This document shows positions 7,502 through 55,643 of a stretch of 55,643 nucleotides of DNA, piece after piece. The stretch spans positions 1 to 55,643 of the IMG/VR virus record IMGVR_UViG_3300032331_001807; one strand, given 5' to 3'. The notes under the pieces were generated by a model. The model was given only the letters and a program-made list of their open reading frames with translations. It ran no database searches and was not told the origin of the DNA. Position 1 is the first letter of the stretch. Each line of letters begins with the position of its first letter. Position numbers and translations under genes: made by a program. The stretch comes from a virus.

Positions 7502-8722
7502 TCAGTCTTCGCTCTCGACGGCGACAGGAGCCTTTACGCCGGGGACGGAAGAAAGGAGCTCGTCGAGCTCGCCGTCCGTGGTGTCACCCTCCTCGACGAC
7601 GGTGGCGGGGGGGACCTGCATGAGCTTGGGCGTCACCTGCGAGAAGAGGGTCTGGAGGTTCTTGGGGTCTTCGTTGATGGACTTGAGGAGGGCGTCCATG
7701 CCCTGCCCACGGACCTCACCCTTCGGACCCGTCGGCCACGAGTACCACGCCCCGGACTTGTTGATGATCTTGTGGTTGATCGCGAGCTCGACCACCGAGC
7801 GGGTGTTGTCGATGCCCACGCCCGACTTGAGGTAGAACTTGAACTCGTTGTTCACCGAGTCGCTGACCTTGCACTTGTCGAGCTTGAGCATGACGATGGT
7901 TCCCACCACCTTCTCCTCCAGCTTGTTCGTGAGCGGGTCGAACTGCTTGGCCTTCTCCTTCTGGTAGACCCGCAGCTTCATGCGGACGCTGGTGTAGAAC
8001 TTCCACGCATCGCCGCCTTGCGGGGCGCTGTCGGGACCACCGCTCATCGTGTTGATCGTCTTGCGAAGCTGCGAGATGGCGAGGATGGTGGTCTGCGACT
8101 TGGACATCATCGCCTTCACTTGAGGGAGGTACTCGGACCACTTTGAGGCGACGATGCCCACGCGCGTCTGGTCACCGATCTCCGACACCTCCCGGTTGAT
8201 CTGTGCTTCGGGCTTGCCTGCGCCCACGGAGTCGAGAACGATGAGGTCCACGCCCTCGTGGATCATCACGGCCATGATCTTCATCCCGTCCTCCAGCGTG
8301 TCGGGCTGGATGAGACTGAAGCGGGACTCGTCGGAGATGGGCACGCCGAGGGTGCTGGCGTAGCGGGGCTCCACCTCGTGCTCCCAGTCGATGTACGCAA
8401 CGGTGCCGCCCGCCGCACACACGCTGGCGGCGATGGTGAGAGCCAGCGTGGTCTTGCCCGCCGAGTTCTCTCCGTACAACTGGGTGATGCGGCCACGGGG
8501 GATGCCGGGGCACGGGGCGATCCCGTACTTGTTGATCTTCCCGCCGATGGCCCAGTCAACGATGATGCTTCCCGTGGGGATGTGCGGGGTGGACTGCTTG
8601 AGGAGGTCCTCGGAGAGCGGGACCGTGGGGTCTTCCTTGAGGACGGTCTTGATCGCGCCACGGGCGCGGGTGAGAGCGGATGTCTTGGCGGGGGAGGTTG
8701 CGGACTTCTTGGCTGCGGCCAT
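7502..8722 (-). CDS. RecA-family recombinase
   Basis: A 406-residue RecA/UvsX-type recombinase. Walker A is GENSAGKTT (residues 84-92) and Walker B is GVDLIVLDSVGA near 158. A DNA-binding L1/L2-like region follows (SQTTILAISQLRKTINTMSGGPDSAPQGGDAWKFYTSVRM), matching the RecA motif in which the filament contacts DNA. It would catalyse strand exchange in recombination-dependent replication and repair together with SSB, the RuvC-like enzyme and the Mre11/Rad50 complex encoded on either side. Compared with bacterial RecA it has a longer N-terminal extension rich in Ala and Lys and an acidic C-terminal tail, both usual in the family. Confidence 0.9.
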   Translation of the reverse strand: MAAAKKSATSPAKTSALTRARGAIKTVLKEDPTVPLSEDLLKQSTPHIPTGSIIVDWAIGGKINKYGIAPCPGIPRGRITQLYGENSAGKTTLALTIAASVCAAGGTVAYIDWEHEVEPRYASTLGVPISDESRFSLIQPDTLEDGMKIMAVMIHEGVDLIVLDSVGAGKPEAQINREVSEIGDQTRVGIVASKWSEYLPQVKAMMSKSQTTILAISQLRKTINTMSGGPDSAPQGGDAWKFYTSVRMKLRVYQKEKAKQFDPLTNKLEEKVVGTIVMLKLDKCKVSDSVNNEFKFYLKSGVGIDNTRSVVELAINHKIINKSGAWYSWPTGPKGEVRGQGMDALLKSINEDPKNLQTLFSQVTPKLMQVPPATVVEEGDTTDGELDELLSSVPGVKAPVAVESED

Positions 8723-11779: not shown

Positions 11780-14098
11780 TTACGCTCGCAGACGGGCCGC
11801 GAACAACGTGTTCCGAGCATCTTCGCGGTTGTTGAGCACCGCACGCTCTATCGCACGGTAGGTGCCCACCAGCAGCACCTTCTTCTTGGCGCGGGTGATG
11901 GCCGTGTAGAAGAGGTTGCGCTGGAGTTGGTGAGAGAAGCTCTCCACCAAGGGCATCACCACCACGTCGTACTCAAGCCCTTGGCAGCGGTGGACCGTCA
12001 CGGCGTAGGCCAGACGGAGAAGTTTGCCAGCCTCGGAGAACGGGATGGAGACCATCACCACGGGCGGGCCGTGGATCTTGATCTGGATGATCTTGGCCTT
12101 CTTGTCGATCCGATTGACCTTGGCCACGTCGCCGTTGAACACTCCGAGCTTGTAGTCGTTCTTGCTGACGATCACCCGGTCGCCTTCACGGAGCACCTCA
12201 CCGTCCACGGTCATCTCGGGGAGCCCGTGCTGGGCGGGGTTGAGGATCGCCCGGAGACGAGTGTTGAGATTGGTGACACCGAGGGTGCCAGCGTGCCGGG
12301 GGGAGAGAACTTGGAAGTTTTCCCGCTGCGTGTACAGCTTCTCGGACAGCTTCAGCACGAGCTTCAGCACCTCCTCCTCGTCAGCCAGCGGGAACAGACG
12401 GAAGTCCGACTGAAGGGGGGCTTCGGGCACGCGCCCGTGGTAGATGTCGTGCGCCGCCGTCACGATGGGTGAGGTATCTGCTTGGCGGAAAATCTCCGTG
12501 AGGGCCACGGTCGGGAACCGCCCCGATGCGAGGAGGTCGCGGAGTACGTTGCCCGCGCCCACCGAGGGTAGCTGCGCGGCGTCTCCGACGAACACCAGTC
12601 GGCAGTCCGGGCTGGTACACGTCAGCACCCGGTAGAGAAGTGCTTGGTCCACCATGCTCGACTCGTCGATGACCACCACTTCGGCGGTGTGAGGGTACTT
12701 GGGTCCGAACCCCCACTCCTCGCCAGAGCCGTCCGACACGGGGGCGTCCCCACGCTCACCTACCACCCCCGCGTAGGTTGACTCACGCCCGTCCTCGACG
12801 GTGATGCCCCGGGCCTCAAACGCCCGGTGGATGGTGCTGGCAGTGACCCCGGTGACGGAGGCGACCCGCTTCGCCGCGATGCCCGTCGGAGCCACGACCA
12901 ACGGAACAATCCCCGCCTCGTGGAGCAGGGTGAGGGCCATGCGGAGGGAGGTCGTTTTGCCCGAGCCCGGGAGGCCCGTGATGATGGACACGGACTCGGT
13001 GAGGGCGTTGAGCACCGCCTCCGTCTGCATGGGGGAGAGGGCGATGCCGAGGTTCGATCCCACCTTGGAGAGGTACTGGACCCCGGCCTCGCGGAGAGTG
13101 ACCCCCGGCACCTCCTCGCCAAGGAGAGACTTCGCGTACTGGGCGGCACGGTCGGGAGGGATGGCAGCGGTGGTGACTCGCTCCAACAGGATGCGAGAGG
13201 ACTCGCACTCCGTCTCGTAGGCCCACGGGTCGTAGATGGCCGTGAGCCCCGGCTGCGTGCGGTCCACCACCACCCGGTCCTCCTCGATGAGAGCCTTGAG
13301 GCCCACGGCGATGTCCCGGTCGGTCATGAGCGGGTCGAGGGGACGCACCGCCCCGAGGAGTTCTCCCGACGACAGGTACAGGTGCCCCATCCCCTTGCTG
13401 GACTTGGCCGCATGGAGCACCGCCCCCTTCACCCGGTTGATGTTCGACGGGGAGCAGTCCAGCCCGAGGCGCTGGGCCACGGTGTCGCAGTCCGAGAACG
13501 TCACCCCGTCAATCTCCAGCAGCGACCACGGGTTGGTGGAGAGAACGTCGCGGGCTTCGTCCCCGAACTGACTCCAGACTTGGCGCACCTTCCCCTGCGG
13601 GAGCCCGAGGTCACCCAAGAAGTCCAGCGTGCGGAACAAAGCCGTGGCCGTGCGCCACTTGTGGACGACGAGCTCCGCGATGAACGTGGTCATCCCCGGG
13701 ACCGCCTTGATCTGCTCCGGGTCCAAGAGGGCGGCGGGCATGTCGCCCTTGAAAGCCTCACGGAGCTTGGCCGCGATGGAACTGCCGATGCCCTGCGACA
13801 CCAGAACCTTCTCGCACGTCACCTCGTCCCACCCGGACTTCAGCACCGGGGCACGGGTGATCTTGAGTTGCCGCCCGTACTTGGGGTGGTCGTCCCAGAC
13901 ACCCTCCCACCCGAACCACGTCCCGACGGCGATCTTCACGCCGGGGATGTCCCCCCGCACGGTGACGATGGACTCGTCCTGCACGGACTCGGCGTCGAGG
14001 GTCATGCGGAGGACGTAGAAGGCTTTGGCCTCGTTTGAGAAGTTGATCGTGTGGACGCGACCCGAAAAATAGGTCGCGGAAGGCTTGGTCGGAGGCAT
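11780..14098 (-). CDS. RecD2-like superfamily 1 DNA helicase
   Basis: A 772-residue helicase of the RecD2/TraA type. The N-terminal OB-like and helix-hairpin-helix regions (IGSSIAAKLREAF, about residues 110-200) precede the motor: GLPGSGKTTSLRMAL (Walker A), AAKRVASVTG, VVVIDESSMVDQALL (Walker B), VFVGDAAQLPSVGAGNVL (motif III), AVTVHRCQGLEYDVVVMP (motif V region) and LFYTAITRAKKKVLLVG (motif VI). It would unwind DNA 5-prime to 3-prime in replication or repair. The ATG at 14098 is preceded by GGGCGTAA 8 bases upstream, the same spacing as at several other starts. Confidence 0.88.
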   Translation of the reverse strand: MPPTKPSATYFSGRVHTINFSNEAKAFYVLRMTLDAESVQDESIVTVRGDIPGVKIAVGTWFGWEGVWDDHPKYGRQLKITRAPVLKSGWDEVTCEKVLVSQGIGSSIAAKLREAFKGDMPAALLDPEQIKAVPGMTTFIAELVVHKWRTATALFRTLDFLGDLGLPQGKVRQVWSQFGDEARDVLSTNPWSLLEIDGVTFSDCDTVAQRLGLDCSPSNINRVKGAVLHAAKSSKGMGHLYLSSGELLGAVRPLDPLMTDRDIAVGLKALIEEDRVVVDRTQPGLTAIYDPWAYETECESSRILLERVTTAAIPPDRAAQYAKSLLGEEVPGVTLREAGVQYLSKVGSNLGIALSPMQTEAVLNALTESVSIITGLPGSGKTTSLRMALTLLHEAGIVPLVVAPTGIAAKRVASVTGVTASTIHRAFEARGITVEDGRESTYAGVVGERGDAPVSDGSGEEWGFGPKYPHTAEVVVIDESSMVDQALLYRVLTCTSPDCRLVFVGDAAQLPSVGAGNVLRDLLASGRFPTVALTEIFRQADTSPIVTAAHDIYHGRVPEAPLQSDFRLFPLADEEEVLKLVLKLSEKLYTQRENFQVLSPRHAGTLGVTNLNTRLRAILNPAQHGLPEMTVDGEVLREGDRVIVSKNDYKLGVFNGDVAKVNRIDKKAKIIQIKIHGPPVVMVSIPFSEAGKLLRLAYAVTVHRCQGLEYDVVVMPLVESFSHQLQRNLFYTAITRAKKKVLLVGTYRAIERAVLNNREDARNTLFAARLRA

Positions 14099-15031: not shown

Positions 15032-16957
15032 TCAAATCTCACACACGCCACCGACGCAGGCGGCTTCACGGGCACCGTCGCCCTCGTCACGGGTCTCGTA
15101 GTGGGTGAGCAGGGTGAAGTCCACGGCGGGCATCGTCCGCTGCGACTCGCGGTACTCCTCCTCGGTGATCTCGACGTAGGGGGCGAGGCGGTACTTGGTC
15201 GGGTCGTAGGGGAGGAACGACAGGCCCGTCACCTCGTCAAAGTTCTTCCAGAGCCACTCGCCCACCTCCCGCCACTCCTCCTCGCGGACGTAGACGGTGG
15301 CGGACTGATTGTGGCCCTTGTCGCCACACCACGTCCGCATGATCTGGCGGTACCGCTCCAGTTGCTCCAGCGCCTTCTCGTGCTCGCGGAGCTTGGCACC
15401 GTCGGGGGACTTCACCGGGAAGCGGGCGACCCACACGTCCACGGCGTCGTCCTCCAAGTTCTCCTGCCCGTTCTCCTTGAACAGCGGCACGCCTTGGTCG
15501 CGGACGAGGTGGTACAGCGGGTCCTTCGACGAGATGCGAACGTGGCGGTGGTAGTACTTGGCGTACCGGGTGTGGAACCCCGAGGCGCAGTCCACGAACT
15601 GCGACGAGTTCCCCGAGGGCTTGCCGCAGGTGATCGCCGCAGGGCGGTTCTGCTTGAGGGCGTCCGCCGCGATGAGGGCCGTCGAACGGGCGATGGCGTT
15701 CAAGTACGTCATCGCGTCCTCGTCGCCCGAGAGCGCCGGGTTGTCGCACTGCCCGGTGATGTCCACGCCGAGAAGTCGGTCCTCGTCGCAGAGCTCCTTC
15801 CAAGCAGGACGGAGATACGGGAAGTGCGTGTAGCTGGACTGGATCACGCCGAGCCAAGCCGCCGTGCGGACCTTCTCGGACATCGTCTCCAGCGTGTCGT
15901 GCGGGCGCATCACGGCAGCGGTGAGGTTGCAGAACTGTCCGCCGCCCCCCTCGCCCGTCCACGGGTCGGTCGCCCGCTTGAAGCGCAGGAGGATCTCGCC
16001 GCAGGGGTTGCTACGGAACTCCCCGCCGCGCTTGGCCACGTTCTTCGGGCTGACGATGTAGAAGCCCCGCTCGCCCGAACCCGACTTGGCGAGGGAGTCC
16101 CACTCGCGCCAGAACACCTCCTCGGTGGGGCGGTCGAGGTACACGGCGCTGTTGTTCGCCATGTAACGGATGGACGGGAAGGTGCCCTTCGACCAATCCT
16201 TGGCGTCACGCATCTCGGCGTCGTCCACGTCGCTGAACGAAATGAGGGACGCGCGGCGGAAGCCACCCACCATCACGATCTCCGCGATCATGCACATGAT
16301 GTCGTGCGCCTCGACGGGCTTGAGGCGACGCCCCGCCGCCTTGGCGATGGTCTCCCCGGCGAAGTCCAGCACCCGCTTGAGGGGTTCCGGCCCGCTGGCC
16401 CGCCCGCCCTTGGTGTGGAGGCGTTCGCCCTTCGCCCGGATGAGTGAGTAGTTCCAGTTGACCCGGTGCCCGAGGTGGTACTGCACCATCCCGAAGTACA
16501 CGGCGTCCGCCCAGCCTTCGGTCGAGTCTTGGATGATGTAGTCGATGGTGTCGTTCGTGGGAGCAGCGATCACCGGGAGGTTGTCGGTGAACGTCCGCTC
16601 GACGGAGAAGCCAACGCCCGTCCCCTGCATGAGAATGTAGAGCGCCTCGCTGAACGCCCGGAGGTTGTCCACGGGCAGGAACGAGCAGTTGTACCCGCAC
16701 ACGTTGTCGCGGTCCATCGCAGGACCAGCGCACCACAGCGCCCGCATCGACCCCAGCACGTCGAAGTCGAGGATGGCCTTCTCGGTCTTCTCACGGAGCC
16801 CGTGCGGCACGGGCTTGTCCTTGAAGATGTAGCTGACGTAGCGGTGGACGGTCTCGGGCCACGTCTCGCGGCGCTTCTGGTCCTCCAGCCAGCGCGCGTA
16901 GGTGCGCGTGTACACGAATTCACTCAACAAATTGGGGAAAGGACTCCCATCGAGCAT
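15032..16957 (-). CDS. adenosylcobalamin-dependent (class II) ribonucleotide reductase
   Basis: A 641-residue monomeric class II reductase resembling the Lactobacillus leichmannii triphosphate reductase. Landmarks are GSMRALWCAGPA, a cysteine in GYNCSFLPV, the radical-site block RSNPCGEILLRF, and the C-terminal thiol pair ACVGGVCEI that re-reduces the active site. It makes deoxynucleotides for phage replication and needs cobalamin but no separate small subunit or oxygen. The ATG at 16957 has a GAGGAG ribosome site 7 bases upstream; a longer TTG start at 16981 would overlap that site and is rejected. It precedes clamp-loader genes. Confidence 0.9.
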   Translation of the reverse strand: MLDGSPFPNLLSEFVYTRTYARWLEDQKRRETWPETVHRYVSYIFKDKPVPHGLREKTEKAILDFDVLGSMRALWCAGPAMDRDNVCGYNCSFLPVDNLRAFSEALYILMQGTGVGFSVERTFTDNLPVIAAPTNDTIDYIIQDSTEGWADAVYFGMVQYHLGHRVNWNYSLIRAKGERLHTKGGRASGPEPLKRVLDFAGETIAKAAGRRLKPVEAHDIMCMIAEIVMVGGFRRASLISFSDVDDAEMRDAKDWSKGTFPSIRYMANNSAVYLDRPTEEVFWREWDSLAKSGSGERGFYIVSPKNVAKRGGEFRSNPCGEILLRFKRATDPWTGEGGGGQFCNLTAAVMRPHDTLETMSEKVRTAAWLGVIQSSYTHFPYLRPAWKELCDEDRLLGVDITGQCDNPALSGDEDAMTYLNAIARSTALIAADALKQNRPAAITCGKPSGNSSQFVDCASGFHTRYAKYYHRHVRISSKDPLYHLVRDQGVPLFKENGQENLEDDAVDVWVARFPVKSPDGAKLREHEKALEQLERYRQIMRTWCGDKGHNQSATVYVREEEWREVGEWLWKNFDEVTGLSFLPYDPTKYRLAPYVEITEEEYRESQRTMPAVDFTLLTHYETRDEGDGAREAACVGGVCEI

Positions 16958-17072
16958 GAGTTGACTCCTCACTCGTTCCAAGGCGTTGTAGGTTGGTGGA
17001 GGTGGCGACGCCTCGACCCGGACGCGCCCTCGGGGGGCACATCGGGAGAGGTATCAAAGGGCAAACGGGAGG

Positions 17073-24078: not shown

Positions 24079-24092
24079 CGATTCTCGGTTAC
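24079..24092 (+). promoter_or_regulatory. recurring 14-base motif, copy 1
   Basis: CGATTCTCGGTTAC, an exact match to the consensus CGATTCYYGGTTAC shared with the right end of the window. Here the next assigned start (24221) is 128 bases away, unlike the 29-base spacing of most copies. It is followed by a GC-rich hairpin-forming stretch. Confidence 0.55.
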
Positions 24093-24958: not shown

Positions 24959-25132
24959 ATGAAGGTCTGGATCGTGACGGCGGGTTGGAACCGCGAAGAG
25001 ACGTGGATTCTCGGCGTGTTCGCCACGGAGCAGGGTGCCCAAGCGTTCGTGGGAACCCTCCCCGTGGACGGACGTGGCATGTTCGACGGATACGACTTCG
25101 TGCGGGTCCATGCCTACGACGTGACGCTGTGA
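24959..25132 (+). CDS. small hypothetical protein (57 aa)
   Basis: This short gene, absent from usual size cut-offs, reads MKVWIVTAGWNREETWILGV, then AFVGTLPVDGRGMFDGY and ends YDVTL. It is compact, beta-rich and begins 9 bases after a GGGCGTAA that contains the previous stop codon. Its TGA overlaps the GTG of the first FGE-core cassette. It resembles no FGE N-terminal domain, so the cassettes that follow are orphans. Confidence 0.55.
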   Translation: MKVWIVTAGWNREETWILGVFATEQGAQAFVGTLPVDGRGMFDGYDFVRVHAYDVTL

Positions 25133-25317
25133 ACAACCCCAAGCCCAAGCCCAAGCCCAAGCCCGACAACCTCCCCCGCGTGTATCGCGGCGGGTCGTGG
25201 TTCAGCACGTCCGCCACCCTCGTGCGCGCGGCTTCTCGCTACGACTTCACGTCGTCGATCCGTCACTACATCTTCGGGTTTCGCTGTGTGCTGCGGGGAA
25301 GGGAACCCCGAGTATGA
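25129..25317 (+). CDS. stand-alone FGE-sulfatase C-terminal core, cassette A (62 aa)
   Basis: A GTG start overlaps the preceding TGA. After a (KP)-repeat linker (NNPKPKPKPKPDNLP), RVYRGGSWFSTSATLVRAASR and HYIFGFRCVLRGREPRV form the complete C-terminal core of the formylglycine-generating-enzyme fold (RGGSW, R-x-A-x-R, GFRC), and nothing else. In normal proteins this core follows a GNVWEWT segment in the same chain; here it stands alone. The last 21 bases are identical to those of cassette D at 54299-54319, and the next cassette begins in the overlapping ATGA. Confidence 0.75.
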   Translation: MNNPKPKPKPKPDNLPRVYRGGSWFSTSATLVRAASRYDFTSSIRHYIFGFRCVLRGREPRV

Positions 25318-25484
25318 GCCCGATCAAAACCCCGCGTGCCATCCGTGGCACCAGTTGGGCCTATCGCGACCCCGGCGAGGACCGCGCCGAGATTCGCGTC
25401 TGTAACGGCATTGAGGATCGCCTACCCGTCGTGGGCTTCCGTTGCTCGCTGCGGGCAAGGGCACCCGTAGAGGCTGATCCGTGA
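25314..25484 (+). CDS. stand-alone FGE-type core, cassette B (56 aa)
   Basis: ATG overlaps the stop of cassette A (ATGA). The protein PRAIRGTSWAYRDPGEDRAEIRVCNG and LPVVGFRCSLRARAPVEADP retains the R-G-x-S-W opening and GFRC-x-LR ending of the FGE core, with a very different middle. Basic residues (R) replace the usual R-x-A-x-R element, so the fold may be degraded. The stop overlaps the GTG of cassette C, keeping the three translationally coupled. Confidence 0.65.
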   Translation: MSPIKTPRAIRGTSWAYRDPGEDRAEIRVCNGIEDRLPVVGFRCSLRARAPVEADP

Positions 25485-25663
25485 GCAATCCCGCCTCCCT
25501 CCGTAACGGAGGTTGGGCCGAGGAGGAGCCCGAGACCTTTCGGGCGGCTCACCGTCGCCAAGGCGTGCGCGCCTACCGATGCTGGGGAGCACCCTCGTAC
25601 CGTGACGACGAGACCGGGTTCCGCACCGTGCTGACGGCGGCACGGCAACCCGTCCGGGCGTAA
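25481..25663 (+). CDS. stand-alone FGE-type core, cassette C (60 aa)
   Basis: The GTG overlaps the TGA of cassette B. SLRNGGWAEEEPETFRAAHRRQG opens like the R-G-G-x-W element, with FRAAHR matching R-x-A-x-R, and DDETGFRTVLTAARQPVRA ends like GFR-x-x-LR. The most divergent cassette of the left locus. Its TAA lies in a GGGCGTAA motif that precedes the next gene by 8 bases. With A and B it makes a tandem set of three FGE cores without an N-terminal domain. Confidence 0.6.
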   Translation: MSNPASLRNGGWAEEEPETFRAAHRRQGVRAYRCWGAPSYRDDETGFRTVLTAARQPVRA

Positions 25664-25671
25664 CAATCCCC

Positions 25672-26025
25672 GTGACCCCCCTCACCCACGCCAAGAACTC
25701 CGTGAAGCTCCACGGCGGGACGGTGGACGACTACCTCCCGCTGCACTTGTGGATGGATCAAACCAAGCTCCACGTCGCGGACCTCCGACACCGGGTTGTG
25801 CTCCACAACTCATTCGGTATCGGTCTGTGCGAGGAACGCTTCGGCCCGTACCTCACGAACAGCGACGGGAAGAAGGTGCCGACTCGCAAGCTCGCAGAGC
25901 AACACGTCATCGAGGACGTTGGGTTCATCCCGACCCTCGATCAGTCTCTCAAGCACACCCCGATCACCAAGCTGGTAGCCCCGAGGCTACGGAAGGTGAT
26001 CGTCACCCACGACAAGGACGAGTGA
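25672..26025 (+). CDS. DUF6915-like conserved protein (117 aa)
   Basis: A GTG start 8 bases after a GGGCGTAA motif. The sequence HAKNSVKLHGGTVDDYLPLHLWMDQTKLHVADLRHRVVLHN, GIGLCEERFGPYL and EQHVIEDVGFIPTLDQ follows a pattern of histidine-rich small proteins known from many phages and bacteria (DUF6915-like; name from memory). Several histidines (RHR, LHN, EQHV) could bind a metal. No tested function is known to me. It follows the FGE cassettes in the same transcription unit. Confidence 0.65.
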   Translation: MTPLTHAKNSVKLHGGTVDDYLPLHLWMDQTKLHVADLRHRVVLHNSFGIGLCEERFGPYLTNSDGKKVPTRKLAEQHVIEDVGFIPTLDQSLKHTPITKLVAPRLRKVIVTHDKDE

Positions 26026-41254: not shown

Positions 41255-42793
41255 TCACTTGGCGAGCACGACACCCGTGAGCAGCACCTCGCACGCCACG
41301 GACATCGCCGCCCGGAGAGACCCCAGCACCACGCCCACGGGGTCTGCCACGGCGGGGGCCTCCCAGAAGTTCTCCACCGACTCCCGCACCGGGCACCAAC
41401 CCACCCACGGGTCGTCCCCCAAGTTGCCCAAGGCGTCGAACGACACGCCCGCCCGAGCACACAGAACCCGTGCAGGCTCCTCCAGCGCCCGTGACAATAC
41501 GCTACCAGCCATGCTGTGACGTAACTCGTCTTGCACGCTAACATAGTGTAGTGTACGGCCAGCCCCCGGAACCACCCCTCCCTTGAGGGTCTCGCGGACG
41601 GCGTGGAGGGTGTCTTCGACTCTCGACCGTCGTTCCACGGCCTCGGCGTTCGTGTAGCCGCCGACCTTGAGGACGCACAGGCCACCGTCCATCGCACCTG
41701 CCCTCTCCCGGTACCTGTCTCGGTCGTAGTCGGAGGTTGTCTCGTCCGCACGTCGAAGGAGCTCTGCTACCCGTGCGGCGATACGGTCTTCCGAATCGGG
41801 GTAGGAGAGGATCTCCGTGCGGTTCTTCTCGACGGTGATCTTCCGGGCGCAGCCGAGCCACTCGGCCTTGAAGTTCTGCACGTTGTCACCCGCGACGGGG
41901 TCCACCAAGAGGCAGTTTGAGACCGCCGCCACGTCCTCCAACCAATCGTGGGTTTCGTAGAGGGAGGGGTTGAGGTAGGTGACGGCGATGCAGGGGAGCA
42001 CCCCCTTGGCGTCGTTCATCACCATCGTCGTGAGGGCGCTCCCACCCAGCCTCGGGCAGAACAGCACGAGCCCGCGCCCCGGCCACTGGGAGGCTTCCTC
42101 CATGAGCGTCTGCACGTCGTCGAACGAGAGCAGGGGCGCGTTGACCACGGCCACCAACGGGCCGTCGAACACCCTCGGCACCCCGTCGCCCTTCGCCATC
42201 GCGACTGCTGCCCATCCCACGTCGAGCACCAGCCCGTCCCGGTAGTCGGCCTCGATGCCCACCCCGTCACCGGGCTGGATCAACACGGTGCCGTTCTCAC
42301 CGACCCGCAGGACGGCGTCCACCACCGTGGAGCTCACCAACTCGTCGCCGTGGGAGGCCATGAGGGCCACGCGGCGCAGGACGGCCTCGTCGGGCTCCCG
42401 GGCCATCTCGGTGATGAGGCTCTCGACGGGGTGGAGATAGTCGCGCAGTTCTTGGACGAGGGCCACCGGGTTCCACGTCCGAGGGGTGTAATGGTCCAGC
42501 GCAGCTTGGACCAGAGCATTTGCCAACAGGATGGTGGTGCTCGTACCATCCCCCGAACTGCCATCCACCACGGAGGTCGCCGCACGAACCAGAGAAACAC
42601 CGAGTCTCTCGTACCCTTGAAAACGTACCTCACGCGCAAGTGATGACCCATCGGTCGTCACCAGCACTCTGCCCTTCTTGTCCACTGCCACCTTGGACCC
42701 GTGTGGCCCGTAGGTGGTCGCTACCAGCTTTGCAAGCTCCGTCATCCCGCGCGTGAGGGACCCCAATGCGCGCTTGCCTTCGATGACCTTCAT
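41255..42793 (-). CDS. GroEL-like chaperonin subunit (512 aa)
   Basis: A phage GroEL. Key sequences: TYGPHGSKVAVDKKGRVLVTTDGSSLAREV (nucleotide site and the Asp52-type residue), GDGTSTTILLANALV (GDGTT loop), and RSRVEDTLHAVRETLKGGVVPGAG (hinge and Asp398-type catalytic residue). The equatorial, intermediate and apical domains are in order. At 512 residues it is shorter than host GroEL (about 548) and lacks the Gly-Gly-Met tail. No groES is adjacent. It would fold phage proteins such as fibres, whose genes are next to it. The chosen ATG is preceded by no strong SD. Confidence 0.88.
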   Translation of the reverse strand: MKVIEGKRALGSLTRGMTELAKLVATTYGPHGSKVAVDKKGRVLVTTDGSSLAREVRFQGYERLGVSLVRAATSVVDGSSGDGTSTTILLANALVQAALDHYTPRTWNPVALVQELRDYLHPVESLITEMAREPDEAVLRRVALMASHGDELVSSTVVDAVLRVGENGTVLIQPGDGVGIEADYRDGLVLDVGWAAVAMAKGDGVPRVFDGPLVAVVNAPLLSFDDVQTLMEEASQWPGRGLVLFCPRLGGSALTTMVMNDAKGVLPCIAVTYLNPSLYETHDWLEDVAAVSNCLLVDPVAGDNVQNFKAEWLGCARKITVEKNRTEILSYPDSEDRIAARVAELLRRADETTSDYDRDRYRERAGAMDGGLCVLKVGGYTNAEAVERRSRVEDTLHAVRETLKGGVVPGAGRTLHYVSVQDELRHSMAGSVLSRALEEPARVLCARAGVSFDALGNLGDDPWVGWCPVRESVENFWEAPAVADPVGVVLGSLRAAMSVACEVLLTGVVLAK

Positions 42794-42847
42794 CACGCGG
42801 ATTTTACCGCACGAGGTCACCGAGGGGAGTGCGAGAAGGACTCCACC

Positions 42848-43333
42848 ATGACTGAATCCATCGTAGCCCTTTGGCTCACGGTGATGCTCTCCTTCGCCCG
42901 CCACGAGCCTCGTGAGCGGTTGGAGACCATCGCCCGTACCGTCGTCGAAGCGACGAGTGACCCGCAGGAGCAAGCTCTCCTGCTGACCATCTCGTTCTAC
43001 GAGACGGGGTTTGGCCGAGCGGGCATTCCCTTTGGCCTCTCGTCGGTGAACCGCCGGGGACACACGCTGGCGGACGACTCCCAGTCGTCCCTGCGTATCC
43101 TCCGACGGTCCTACGCCCGCTGCGAGCGTGGCTTGGCCCAGATCCTCGGGCACTACCACCACGGCAACGGGTGCCGACCAGACCCGTACTCCTACAACGA
43201 GGCCGAGACCGTCCGCCGCATGGTGGGCCTCTACTACCGTCGCGCCTACGCCACCGGGGTCACAGTGTCCCCGGCACCAGTGTTCCTTCGGTACGCCGAC
43301 AATCGGCCCCGACCGGGAGGTAGGCGACGCTGA
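42848..43333 (+). CDS. lytic transglycosylase-like protein (161 aa)
   Basis: A hydrophobic N-terminus (MTESIVALWLTVMLSFARHEPRERLETIA), then ALLLTISFYETGFGRAGIPFGLS, whose E-T-G-F resembles the catalytic Glu region of SLT-type transglycosylases and lysozyme-like domains, followed by a helical part (LRILRRSYARCERGLAQILGHYHHGNG) with the G-N-G turn and Tyr-rich C-terminal (YNEAETVRRMVGLYYRR). Likely cuts the glycan strand during entry or lysis. It ends in a basic tail (RYADNRPRPGGRRR). A strong hairpin terminator follows. Confidence 0.6.
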   Translation: MTESIVALWLTVMLSFARHEPRERLETIARTVVEATSDPQEQALLLTISFYETGFGRAGIPFGLSSVNRRGHTLADDSQSSLRILRRSYARCERGLAQILGHYHHGNGCRPDPYSYNEAETVRRMVGLYYRRAYATGVTVSPAPVFLRYADNRPRPGGRRR

Positions 43334-53324: not shown

Positions 53325-54149
53325 ATGAAGATCCAAGTCTGCATCGTCGAGGGACCCAAGGGGGTCTGGCTCGACTACGAGCCCTCCACACCCCTCCCCA
53401 ACACGGATCATCCCGACGAGGTCGCCGGGGTGGTCAACACCATCCGCCTGCCCGAGGGTGTCACCGCCCTGCGGGTACTCACGGCGACGGAGGTGTGGAG
53501 CTTCCACTACCACCCCTCCTACGGGTGCGTCCCGCGCCTCCGCATCGAGGCGGGTGAGGTGGTGATGGAATGGCCGACGAACGCCGAGGTGGGCGGCGTC
53601 TGGACGGTCCACCACGTCCTGCCCGACGGGAACCTCCTGCCCCATTGCTACGTCGAGGGAGCCACGTCCTTCATGATGGGCGACGACGAGAGCCAGACCC
53701 GTCGCAAGGTCGTCGTCGAGGCGGGCTTCATGGCCTTCACCCCGACGACCGTGAGGCAGTGGAACTGGTACGCCACGGACATGGGCAAGGAGCTCAAGCC
53801 CACCACCGTCACGGACAAGTCGGGCGCGACGGTGGACCTGAGCGACCACCCGGTGGTGGAAGTCTCCTACTGGGAATCGTGCGAGTTCGCCAAGTGGGCG
53901 GGCGTCGGCCTCCCCACGGAGGAGGAGTGGGAGCGCGCCGCGCGCGGCAACGACGGGCGCAAGTTTCCGTGGGGCAACGACGCCCCCAAGGATGAGCTCT
54001 GCTGGTCGAGCATTCACTCCCAGAAGGAGCGCACCGCGCCGTGCTTCAACCCGGACGGCACCCCCGCCCGCCCCAAGGGTGCCTCCCCCTACGGGCTGCT
54101 CGACATGAGCGGCAACGTCTGGGAGTGGACCAGCACCGTCCACAAGTGA
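53325..54149 (+). CDS. FGE-sulfatase-domain protein lacking its C-terminal core (274 aa)
   Basis: The first about 100 residues are an unrelated beta-rich part (MKIQVCIVEGPKGVWLDYE, TVHHVLPDGNLLPHCYVE). The rest is a formylglycine-generating-enzyme/sulfatase-modifying fold: TSFMMGDDESQTRRKVVVEAGFMAFTPTTVRQWNWY, DHPVVEVSYWESCEFAKWAGVGLPTEEEWERAARGNDG, FPWGNDAPKDELCWSS, SPYGLLDMSGNVWEWTST. Normal proteins continue to R-x-x-RGGSW...GFRC; this one stops at VHK-TGA, four residues after NVWEWTST begins to end. The missing core is the next gene, whose GTG overlaps this stop. SD TAAGGAG lies before the ATG. Confidence 0.8.
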   Translation: MKIQVCIVEGPKGVWLDYEPSTPLPNTDHPDEVAGVVNTIRLPEGVTALRVLTATEVWSFHYHPSYGCVPRLRIEAGEVVMEWPTNAEVGGVWTVHHVLPDGNLLPHCYVEGATSFMMGDDESQTRRKVVVEAGFMAFTPTTVRQWNWYATDMGKELKPTTVTDKSGATVDLSDHPVVEVSYWESCEFAKWAGVGLPTEEEWERAARGNDGRKFPWGNDAPKDELCWSSIHSQKERTAPCFNPDGTPARPKGASPYGLLDMSGNVWEWTSTVHK

Positions 54150-54319
54150 GACGGGCACAGCCCCCGGACCCCAACCTCCCCCGCGTACTGGTGGGAGGAG
54201 GTTGGGAACTCTCCTACGCCCCGTTCATGCGGCCCGCCGACCGGGGCTCGTACGAGCCCGAGTGGCGCGAGACCGACATTTTTCGCACCCACCTCGCAGG
54301 AAGGGAACCCCGAGTATGA
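54146..54319 (+). CDS. stand-alone FGE C-terminal core, cassette D (57 aa)
   Basis: The GTG overlaps the TGA of the FGE N-terminal gene (GTGA). NLPRVLVGGGWELSYAPFMRPADRG and TDIFRTHLAGREPRV correspond to RVLRGGSW, R-x-A-x-R and GFRC-x-LRGREPRV of the FGE core but with several key residues replaced (V for R, G for S, T for C). Termination-reinitiation or a -1 shift could join it to the N-terminal domain. The last 21 bases equal those of cassette A at 25297-25317. Confidence 0.7.
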   Translation: MRRAQPPDPNLPRVLVGGGWELSYAPFMRPADRGSYEPEWRETDIFRTHLAGREPRV

Positions 54320-54489
54320 AGCCCCCTACCAAGCCCACCGACACCCGCCTCCGCATCCTCCGCGGCGGCTGTTGGTACAACTATGGACCGTCGAGGGTGC
54401 GCGCGGCGTATCGCAACGCGAACGTGCCTGCGCTCCGAAACTTCCACATCGGGTTTCGGTGCGCGCTGCGGGGTAGGGAACCCCGGTGA
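54316..54489 (+). CDS. stand-alone FGE C-terminal core, cassette E (57 aa)
   Basis: ATG overlaps the TGA of cassette D (ATGA). TRLRILRGGCWYNYGPSRVRAAYRNANVPALRN and HIGFRCALRGREPR form an intact FGE core. Relative to cassette A, from the shared Trp to GFRC there is one-for-one alignment. Four AAC codons at aligned positions 2, 14, 16 and 22 are replaced in A by AGC, TAC, TTC and CAC. This is the pattern expected when AAC codons are mutagenised at A, as in diversity-generating retroelements. Confidence 0.75.
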   Translation: MKPPTKPTDTRLRILRGGCWYNYGPSRVRAAYRNANVPALRNFHIGFRCALRGREPR

Positions 54490-54943: not shown

Positions 54944-55037
54944 GGTGCCGGGGGGCCACTCACCCCCCGCCGTGGGCGGACAAGAAATCGCTGTCAGCAT
55001 CCCCGCCCCGCCCGCGTCTACAGAGCATGACCACCAA

Positions 55038-55051
55038 CGATTTCCTGTTAC
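55038..55051 (+). promoter_or_regulatory. recurring 14-base motif, plus copy
   Basis: CGATTTCCTGTTAC, 29 bases before the ATG at 55081. An upstream ATGACCACC at 55027 looks like the remnant of an earlier leader copy and is in frame, but the motif lies within it and argues for the 55081 start. Confidence 0.65.
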
Positions 55052-55089
55052 ACCACACCCACCGTCTCCGTGGGGAGAGCATGACCACC
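55047..55089 (+). repeat. 43-bp exact leader repeat, copy 1
   Basis: It runs from GTTACACCACACCC to GCATGACCACC and is identical to 55601-55643. It covers the motif end, the CTCCGTGGGGAG hairpin/ribosome site and the first three codons, so the whole leader is duplicated. Confidence 0.9.
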
Positions 55090-55530: not shown

Positions 55531-55591
55531 GGGTCAGCCCGCGTCTACCAGCATAACACGCGCCCCGCTCGTTGACCGTCAGCCCCAGTGA

Positions 55592-55605
55592 CGATTCCCA
55601 GTTAC
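55592..55605 (+). promoter_or_regulatory. recurring 14-base motif, plus copy
   Basis: CGATTCCCAGTTAC, 29 bases before the ATG at 55635. A TTGACC at 55572-55577 lies upstream but its spacing does not fit a standard -10 in the motif. Confidence 0.65.
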
Positions 55606-55643
55606 ACCACACCCACCGTCTCCGTGGGGAGAGCATGACCACC
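55601..55643 (+). repeat. 43-bp exact leader repeat, copy 2 (reaches window edge)
   Basis: Identical to 55047-55089 and cut by the end of the window, so the identity may continue. Confidence 0.9.
55635..55643 (+). CDS. start of next gene, only three codons visible
   Basis: ATG ACC ACC follows the leader at the regular distance, as in the kinase gene. The body lies beyond the window, so nothing about the product can be said. Confidence 0.55.

Follow-up and report, generated by a model that had tools for sequence, protein, structure and literature searches.

Stand-alone FGE-like cores form tandem arrays in a phage clade and may be the separately translated tips of a split DGR target

What are three very short open frames doing in tandem behind an unrelated gene of a virus? 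The question is raised by positions 25129-25663 of a 55,643-nucleotide stretch of viral DNA (IMG/VR record IMGVR_UViG_3300032331_001807), the whole of which we refer to as the window. A preliminary description had taken the three frames, A, B, and C, for orphan cores of the FGE type and, together with two more, D and E, at a second locus, for a mobile or duplicating cassette that could supply alternative tips. The features on which our analysis draws are the following.

24959..25132, + strand: DUF7336 gene, 57 aa (PF24024, E 4.7e-8), with no relation to FGE; the stop codon (TGA) overlaps the start codon (GTG) of core A
25129..25317, + strand: core A, 62 aa, GFRC class (PF03781, E 2.2e-5; independent profile, 5.8e-19)
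25314..25484, + strand: core B, 56 aa, a diverged GFRC core (independent profile, 2.6e-9)
25481..25663, + strand: core C, 60 aa, a GFRT core with an insertion (independent profile, 1.7e-9)
25672..26025, + strand: DUF6915 gene, downstream of core C (PF21866, E 1.6e-35)
53325..54149, + strand: FGE/TvpA-like body, ending in NVWEWTSTVHK and a stop, without the C-terminal core (PF03781, positions 15-193 of 255, E 6e-31)
54146..54319, + strand: core D, GFRT-type (independent profile, 1.0e-15), with a GTGA overlap with the body
54316..54489, + strand: core E, GFRC hypervariable class (PF03781, E 6.6e-7; independent profile, 1.6e-22), with an ATGA overlap with D

A, B, and C are separate open frames whose neighbors share ATGA or GTGA, and the start of A overlaps the stop of the DUF7336 gene by GTGA; the second locus, made up of the body, D, and E, has the same 4-base overlaps. 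The coordinates and overlaps in the preliminary description were reproduced, and the preceding 57-residue protein that it had called unrelated is indeed DUF7336 and not FGE. The R-x-x-RGxSW start ascribed to all three cassettes is exact in A only (B has RGTSW, C RNGGW, and D VGGGW), and the GFRC-type end applies to A and B and not to C, which has GFRT; when aligned, all five cores agree on a W, an R, the FR, and an L-x-x-R end. Within core A, a proline-lysine linker precedes the FGE/CLec core.

The Pfam FGE cut-off (PF03781) is passed by A, E, and the body, and B, C, and D fall short of it alone, being tied to the family only via related cores. An independent core profile was built solely from the cores of three other contigs (G001, G002, and G003; see below). 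Run on the window, it returned exactly A-E, with E values from 1.6e-22 to 2.6e-9 (C at 1.7e-9). The next-best window frame scored 0.063 and a reversed control 0.25, so the window holds five cores and no more, in two loci, as had been described; since all five fall below 3e-9 and nothing else passes, the observation stands well above chance. The same values bear out the earlier assignment of A-C as FGE-type cores. From sequence, each of A-E is predicted to be a free-standing copy of the core that forms the ligand-facing C terminus of an FGE-like protein with a C-type-lectin fold.

The window and the three other contigs each carry one body, which stops just past NVWEW. In an alignment, these four bodies end where 26 other viral FGE-like proteins, encoded on further IMG/VR contigs, run on into the core in one frame, and the bacterial relatives found to have a core like these (two Myxococcales and one Nitrospirota MAG) all carry it within a longer FGE frame. 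We looked for signs that A-C are the eroded tail of one longer gene, an alternative that the preliminary description had raised, and saw none: G001 and G002 also have stand-alone cores behind DUF7336, and a PF03781 search of G001-G003 found no full-length FGE.

The structural model of the body (mean pLDDT 75) has its best match in TvpA (2y3c; Z 10.8, rmsd 3.2, 163 residues aligned), tied with PvdO and FGEs (Z 9.6-10.7), and matches TaqVP (5vf4, Z 5.8) and Mtd (Z 4.9) weakly. Residues 215-247 and the end of the body are poorly modelled, as expected if the core is missing. The N-terminal end of the body carries a further domain of ~90 residues (53325-53600; pLDDT 70-88) that lies mostly outside the structural matches. 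Compared with known structures, the core profile matches those of FGEs. Its match to TvpA, the target protein of a diversity-generating retroelement (DGR) in Treponema, is weak and falls at the C-terminal end of 2y3c (residues 253-291, E 0.013); its match to Mtd is not significant (E 0.58). By way of the core profile (TvpA and FGE structures) and the body model, we thus find a CLec/FGE fold at a C terminus, as is looked for in a DGR target. Modelled alone, the core reaches a low-confidence pLDDT of 50, a result that fits a dependence on the body and can also reflect the poor prediction of small proteins.

With the body as query, we identified three close IMG/VR contigs, G001 (166,764 bases, 87% identical), G002 (265,895 bases, 74%), and G003 (105,516 bases, 47%). 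These relatives hold 54 cores in several arrays (16, 25, and 13, respectively), for a total of 59 with the window. The longest array has seven cores in a row (G001, 65.3-66.6 kb), 34 neighboring core pairs overlap by exactly 4 bases (ATGA or GTGA), and in 14 cases, the first core of an array overlaps the stop of the frame before it. Most arrays are located away from the body, among metabolic or unknown genes, a placement that counts against the split-target reading set out below. An IMG/VR motif search with variable-class cores returned the same contigs only, a tblastn search for cores in the phages collection returned none, and both the body and the cores are absent from the 485-kb relative LR745208.1, which is also present in IMG/VR as a contig.

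The overlaps themselves admit a reading in which ribosomes slip there and join the body and cores into a single chain, and one +1 step at the TGA of the G003 body does open straight into the next core. The body-core frame relation is inconsistent, however (-1 in the window versus +1 in G003), the window junction CACAAGTGAG has no slippery sequence on inspection, and the form of the overlap is the usual one for coupled re-initiation; we regard such frameshifting as very improbable.

Between relatives, the arrays differ at matching loci. In both G001 and G002, the A-C locus has two cores, preceded by DUF7336 as in the window; on its 3' side, DUF6915 is cut down to a short stub in G002 and a 177-aa gene is cut in G001, and because these downstream genes differ, rearrangement seems to have taken place at the array's 3' end. 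At the body locus, D is kept nearly the same in three phages, and the variable cores after it number one in the window, two in G001, and five in G002. One G001 cassette is present at both 9.2 kb and 65.7 kb; the two copies share their variable residues and are 93.5% identical in DNA, flanks included. G002 has mosaic core pairs. From the differences in core number and sequence at matching loci, and from this cassette with identical variable residues at two loci, it follows that the idea of a duplicating, moving cassette holds. The anatomy also fits the alternative tips proposed with it, and the cores may function as such. A four-core GFRT array before a thymidylate kinase gene is nearly identical in G001 (L115:3426-4058) and G002 (L118:5003-5641) and reads as a set of constant cores under ordinary constraint.

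Copies of cassettes across loci, along with DNA common to the cassette ends (GGAAGGGAACCCCGAGTATGA, for example, is shared by A and D), would suit a different role for the cores, that of silent donors forming a DNA archive from which recombination copies sequence into a tip that is expressed, as happens in the antigenic variation of pilin or VlsE. We consider this improbable, given that start codons and the 4-base coupling are kept and that G001-G003 contain no full-length recipient gene. Cassettes that lack their own translation start are likewise not what we found, the 34 pairs having start-stop overlaps.

Neither adenine-targeted variation in one class of core nor the position of C and D (perhaps B) outside that variable class had been mentioned in the preliminary description, and this variation changes the likely mechanism. 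We picked 29 GFRC cores by framework residues only. Their hypervariable columns fall in codons of the AAC type, at bases 1 and 2, and the third base of these codons is nearly fixed as C, in most columns without exception; further variable sites are single bases in AGT, GAA, AGG, ACG, and GAG codons. With the usage of eleven large window genes as the codon expectation, 248 of 256 AAC-type codons end in C (expected 202, z 8.1). At these codons, serine is encoded by AGC in 29/29 cases (26% expected), glycine by GGC in 21/21, and leucine by CTC in 18/18, and K, Q, E, M, or W occurs at none of the 256, as against 42 expected. The rate of difference among GFRC cores is 0.62 at adenine sites and 0.105 at other sites, with values of 0.055 and 0.174 at third positions. 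Owing to the shared ancestry of the cores, the codon counts are not independent events, but 28 of the 29 differ over the stretch compared, and it is which sites vary that matters. The other 30 cores have no adenine signature (z 1.2). The changed bases in the GFRC class comprise 319 A, 178 T, 166 G, and 52 C; as the second base of an AAC-type codon, C hardly occurs.

Variation confined to adenines, by which the variable repeat (VR) of a DGR is recognized, is thus found among the 29 GFRC cores compared mutually, the template itself being unseen, and a DGR-type origin of the GFRC variation is strongly suggested. Ordinary selection acting on residues at the surface of a small protein that has been duplicated, with no targeted mutagenesis involved, agrees with the variable positions being likely to face the ligand in this fold, but it would not confine serine, glycine, and leucine to single codons as above, nor would it remove K, Q, E, M, and W, and its probability is next to negligible. 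In the window, core E fits the signature (8/9 AAC-type codons ending in C, and TGT, GCG, and GTG at single-adenine sites), core A is compatible with it (8/9), and core B is ambiguous (6/9); core C (5/9, with three K/Q/E/M/W codons) and core D do not fit. E would clearly and A probably belong to the variable class, and C and D (perhaps also B) appear to be non-variable copies.

We also searched for the DGR machinery. The reverse transcriptase profile PF00078, which finds Brt of BPP-1 at 9e-19 as a positive control, matched nothing in the window or G001-G003 (all classed as linear and probably fragments) or in the 485-kb core-less relative. Pattern searches for a template repeat in the window and G001-G003, in IMG/VR (two patterns), and in species genomes (one pattern) yielded only cores, one chance match, or nothing. 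Where a homing signal or hairpin would be looked for, at the 3' end of the cores, the sequence is conserved and GC-rich (CGGGG-N7-CCCCG), with predicted folding no better than that of shuffles. Terminase PF03237 had no match in any record, which makes it uninformative as a marker of completeness. Our contig ends within an element whose 53 bases (55591-55643) match 55037-55089 at 96% identity, and owing to this repeat, its end is possibly an assembly break.

The main rival explanation holds that the cores are a fossil library of DGR-diversified repeats, captured long ago and now without an enzyme, that change by duplication, deletion, and recombination. It agrees with the lack of a reverse transcriptase or template in the contigs and IMG/VR and with the copying evident from the two G001 loci and the G002 mosaic pairs. 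The near-identity of the GFRT arrays in G001 and G002 favors it as well, indicating that many cores are not being rewritten. However, third and framework positions of the GFRC cores stay near-identical while their adenine sites differ at the far higher rate given above, which points to recent targeted change, and we judge the fossil library unlikely.

Two further observations concern the phage DNA as a whole. An element like CGATTCTCGGTTACA occurs in twelve copies in the window (at 24079, 41240, 50624, 51569, 51897, 51931, 52780, 52802, 53271, 54490, 55038, and 55592), versus 0.9 expected, and 0 of 100 shuffles reach 12; several copies closely precede start codons, each core operon has one in front of it, and the element is likely to be a phage promoter. 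The window also encodes RecA/UvsX (7502-8722), a RecD2-like helicase (11780-14098), ribonucleotide reductase (15032-16981), and GroEL (41255-43162), a gene content that would be in keeping with a very large phage as the source. Part of one window region has a 69% DNA match to a 485-kb uncultured phage.

The reading that we favor, and think reasonably likely, is that of a split DGR target, in which several tips are translated separately, one of them completes the scaffold, and the GFRC cores are rewritten by a DGR. In this phage clade, the scaffold would be encoded by one gene, that of the body, which is cut short right after NVWEW, and the remainder of the protein by many short genes for cores, each having its own start codon, a linker, and an RGGxW...GFR core. 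We infer that the cores are translated by stop-start coupling (ATGA or GTGA), whether they follow the body or unrelated genes of an operon, and that a single core at a time would complete the body non-covalently, giving one scaffold several interchangeable binding faces. A reverse transcriptase and template repeat, located outside the sequenced parts or acting in trans, would rewrite the GFRC cores, and duplication and recombination would then copy and move the cassettes. More tentatively, the clade might have a split, modular DGR in which the VR is an independent mini-gene that multiplies in tandem, spreads from operon to operon at stop-start junctions, is rewritten in trans, and pairs one scaffold with a library of non-covalent tips that is large and keeps evolving.

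The body belongs to the same sequence family as FGE-sulfatase (PF03781), as do A and E, and here that protein is split in two. In human FGE, a catalytic cysteine pair lies near RGGSW. The motif C-x4-C between RGGxW and GFR is absent from 54 cores checked (five cores, including C, were not parsed by the pattern), and catalysis as in human FGE is therefore unlikely. Among DGR targets, TvpA (2y3c) shares the fold family of the body, has a C-terminal end to which the core aligns, and shows a similar AAC-type adenine variation; the likeness in fold to TaqVP and to Mtd of BPP-1 is weak.

Known DGR targets are near-universally modular, with the VR as the C terminus of a larger, typically multi-domain protein (PMC8144416). 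Multiple VRs per element are common, being found in 28.6% of 948 DGRs, and lie within target open frames, mostly those of several target genes (PMC6642488); diversification of VRs in trans has also been proposed (PMC10907252). In contrast to the known FGE/CLec targets, the VR is here a separate gene of ~57 aa that is repeated up to seven times, with the reverse transcriptase and template unseen, and in contrast to multi-VR DGRs, it takes the form of VR-only mini-genes in tandem, coupled by 4 bases. In the literature searched, of which coverage was partial, we found no precedent for tandem VR-only mini-genes separate from their scaffold.

DGR surveys start from the reverse transcriptase, so contigs that have VR-only mini-genes and no reverse transcriptase would be missed. 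If the cores are exchangeable subunits, one scaffold would provide a phage with a combinatorial set of binding faces, and the presence of cores behind unrelated genes would prompt one to ask whether phage DGRs have a role within the cell as well.
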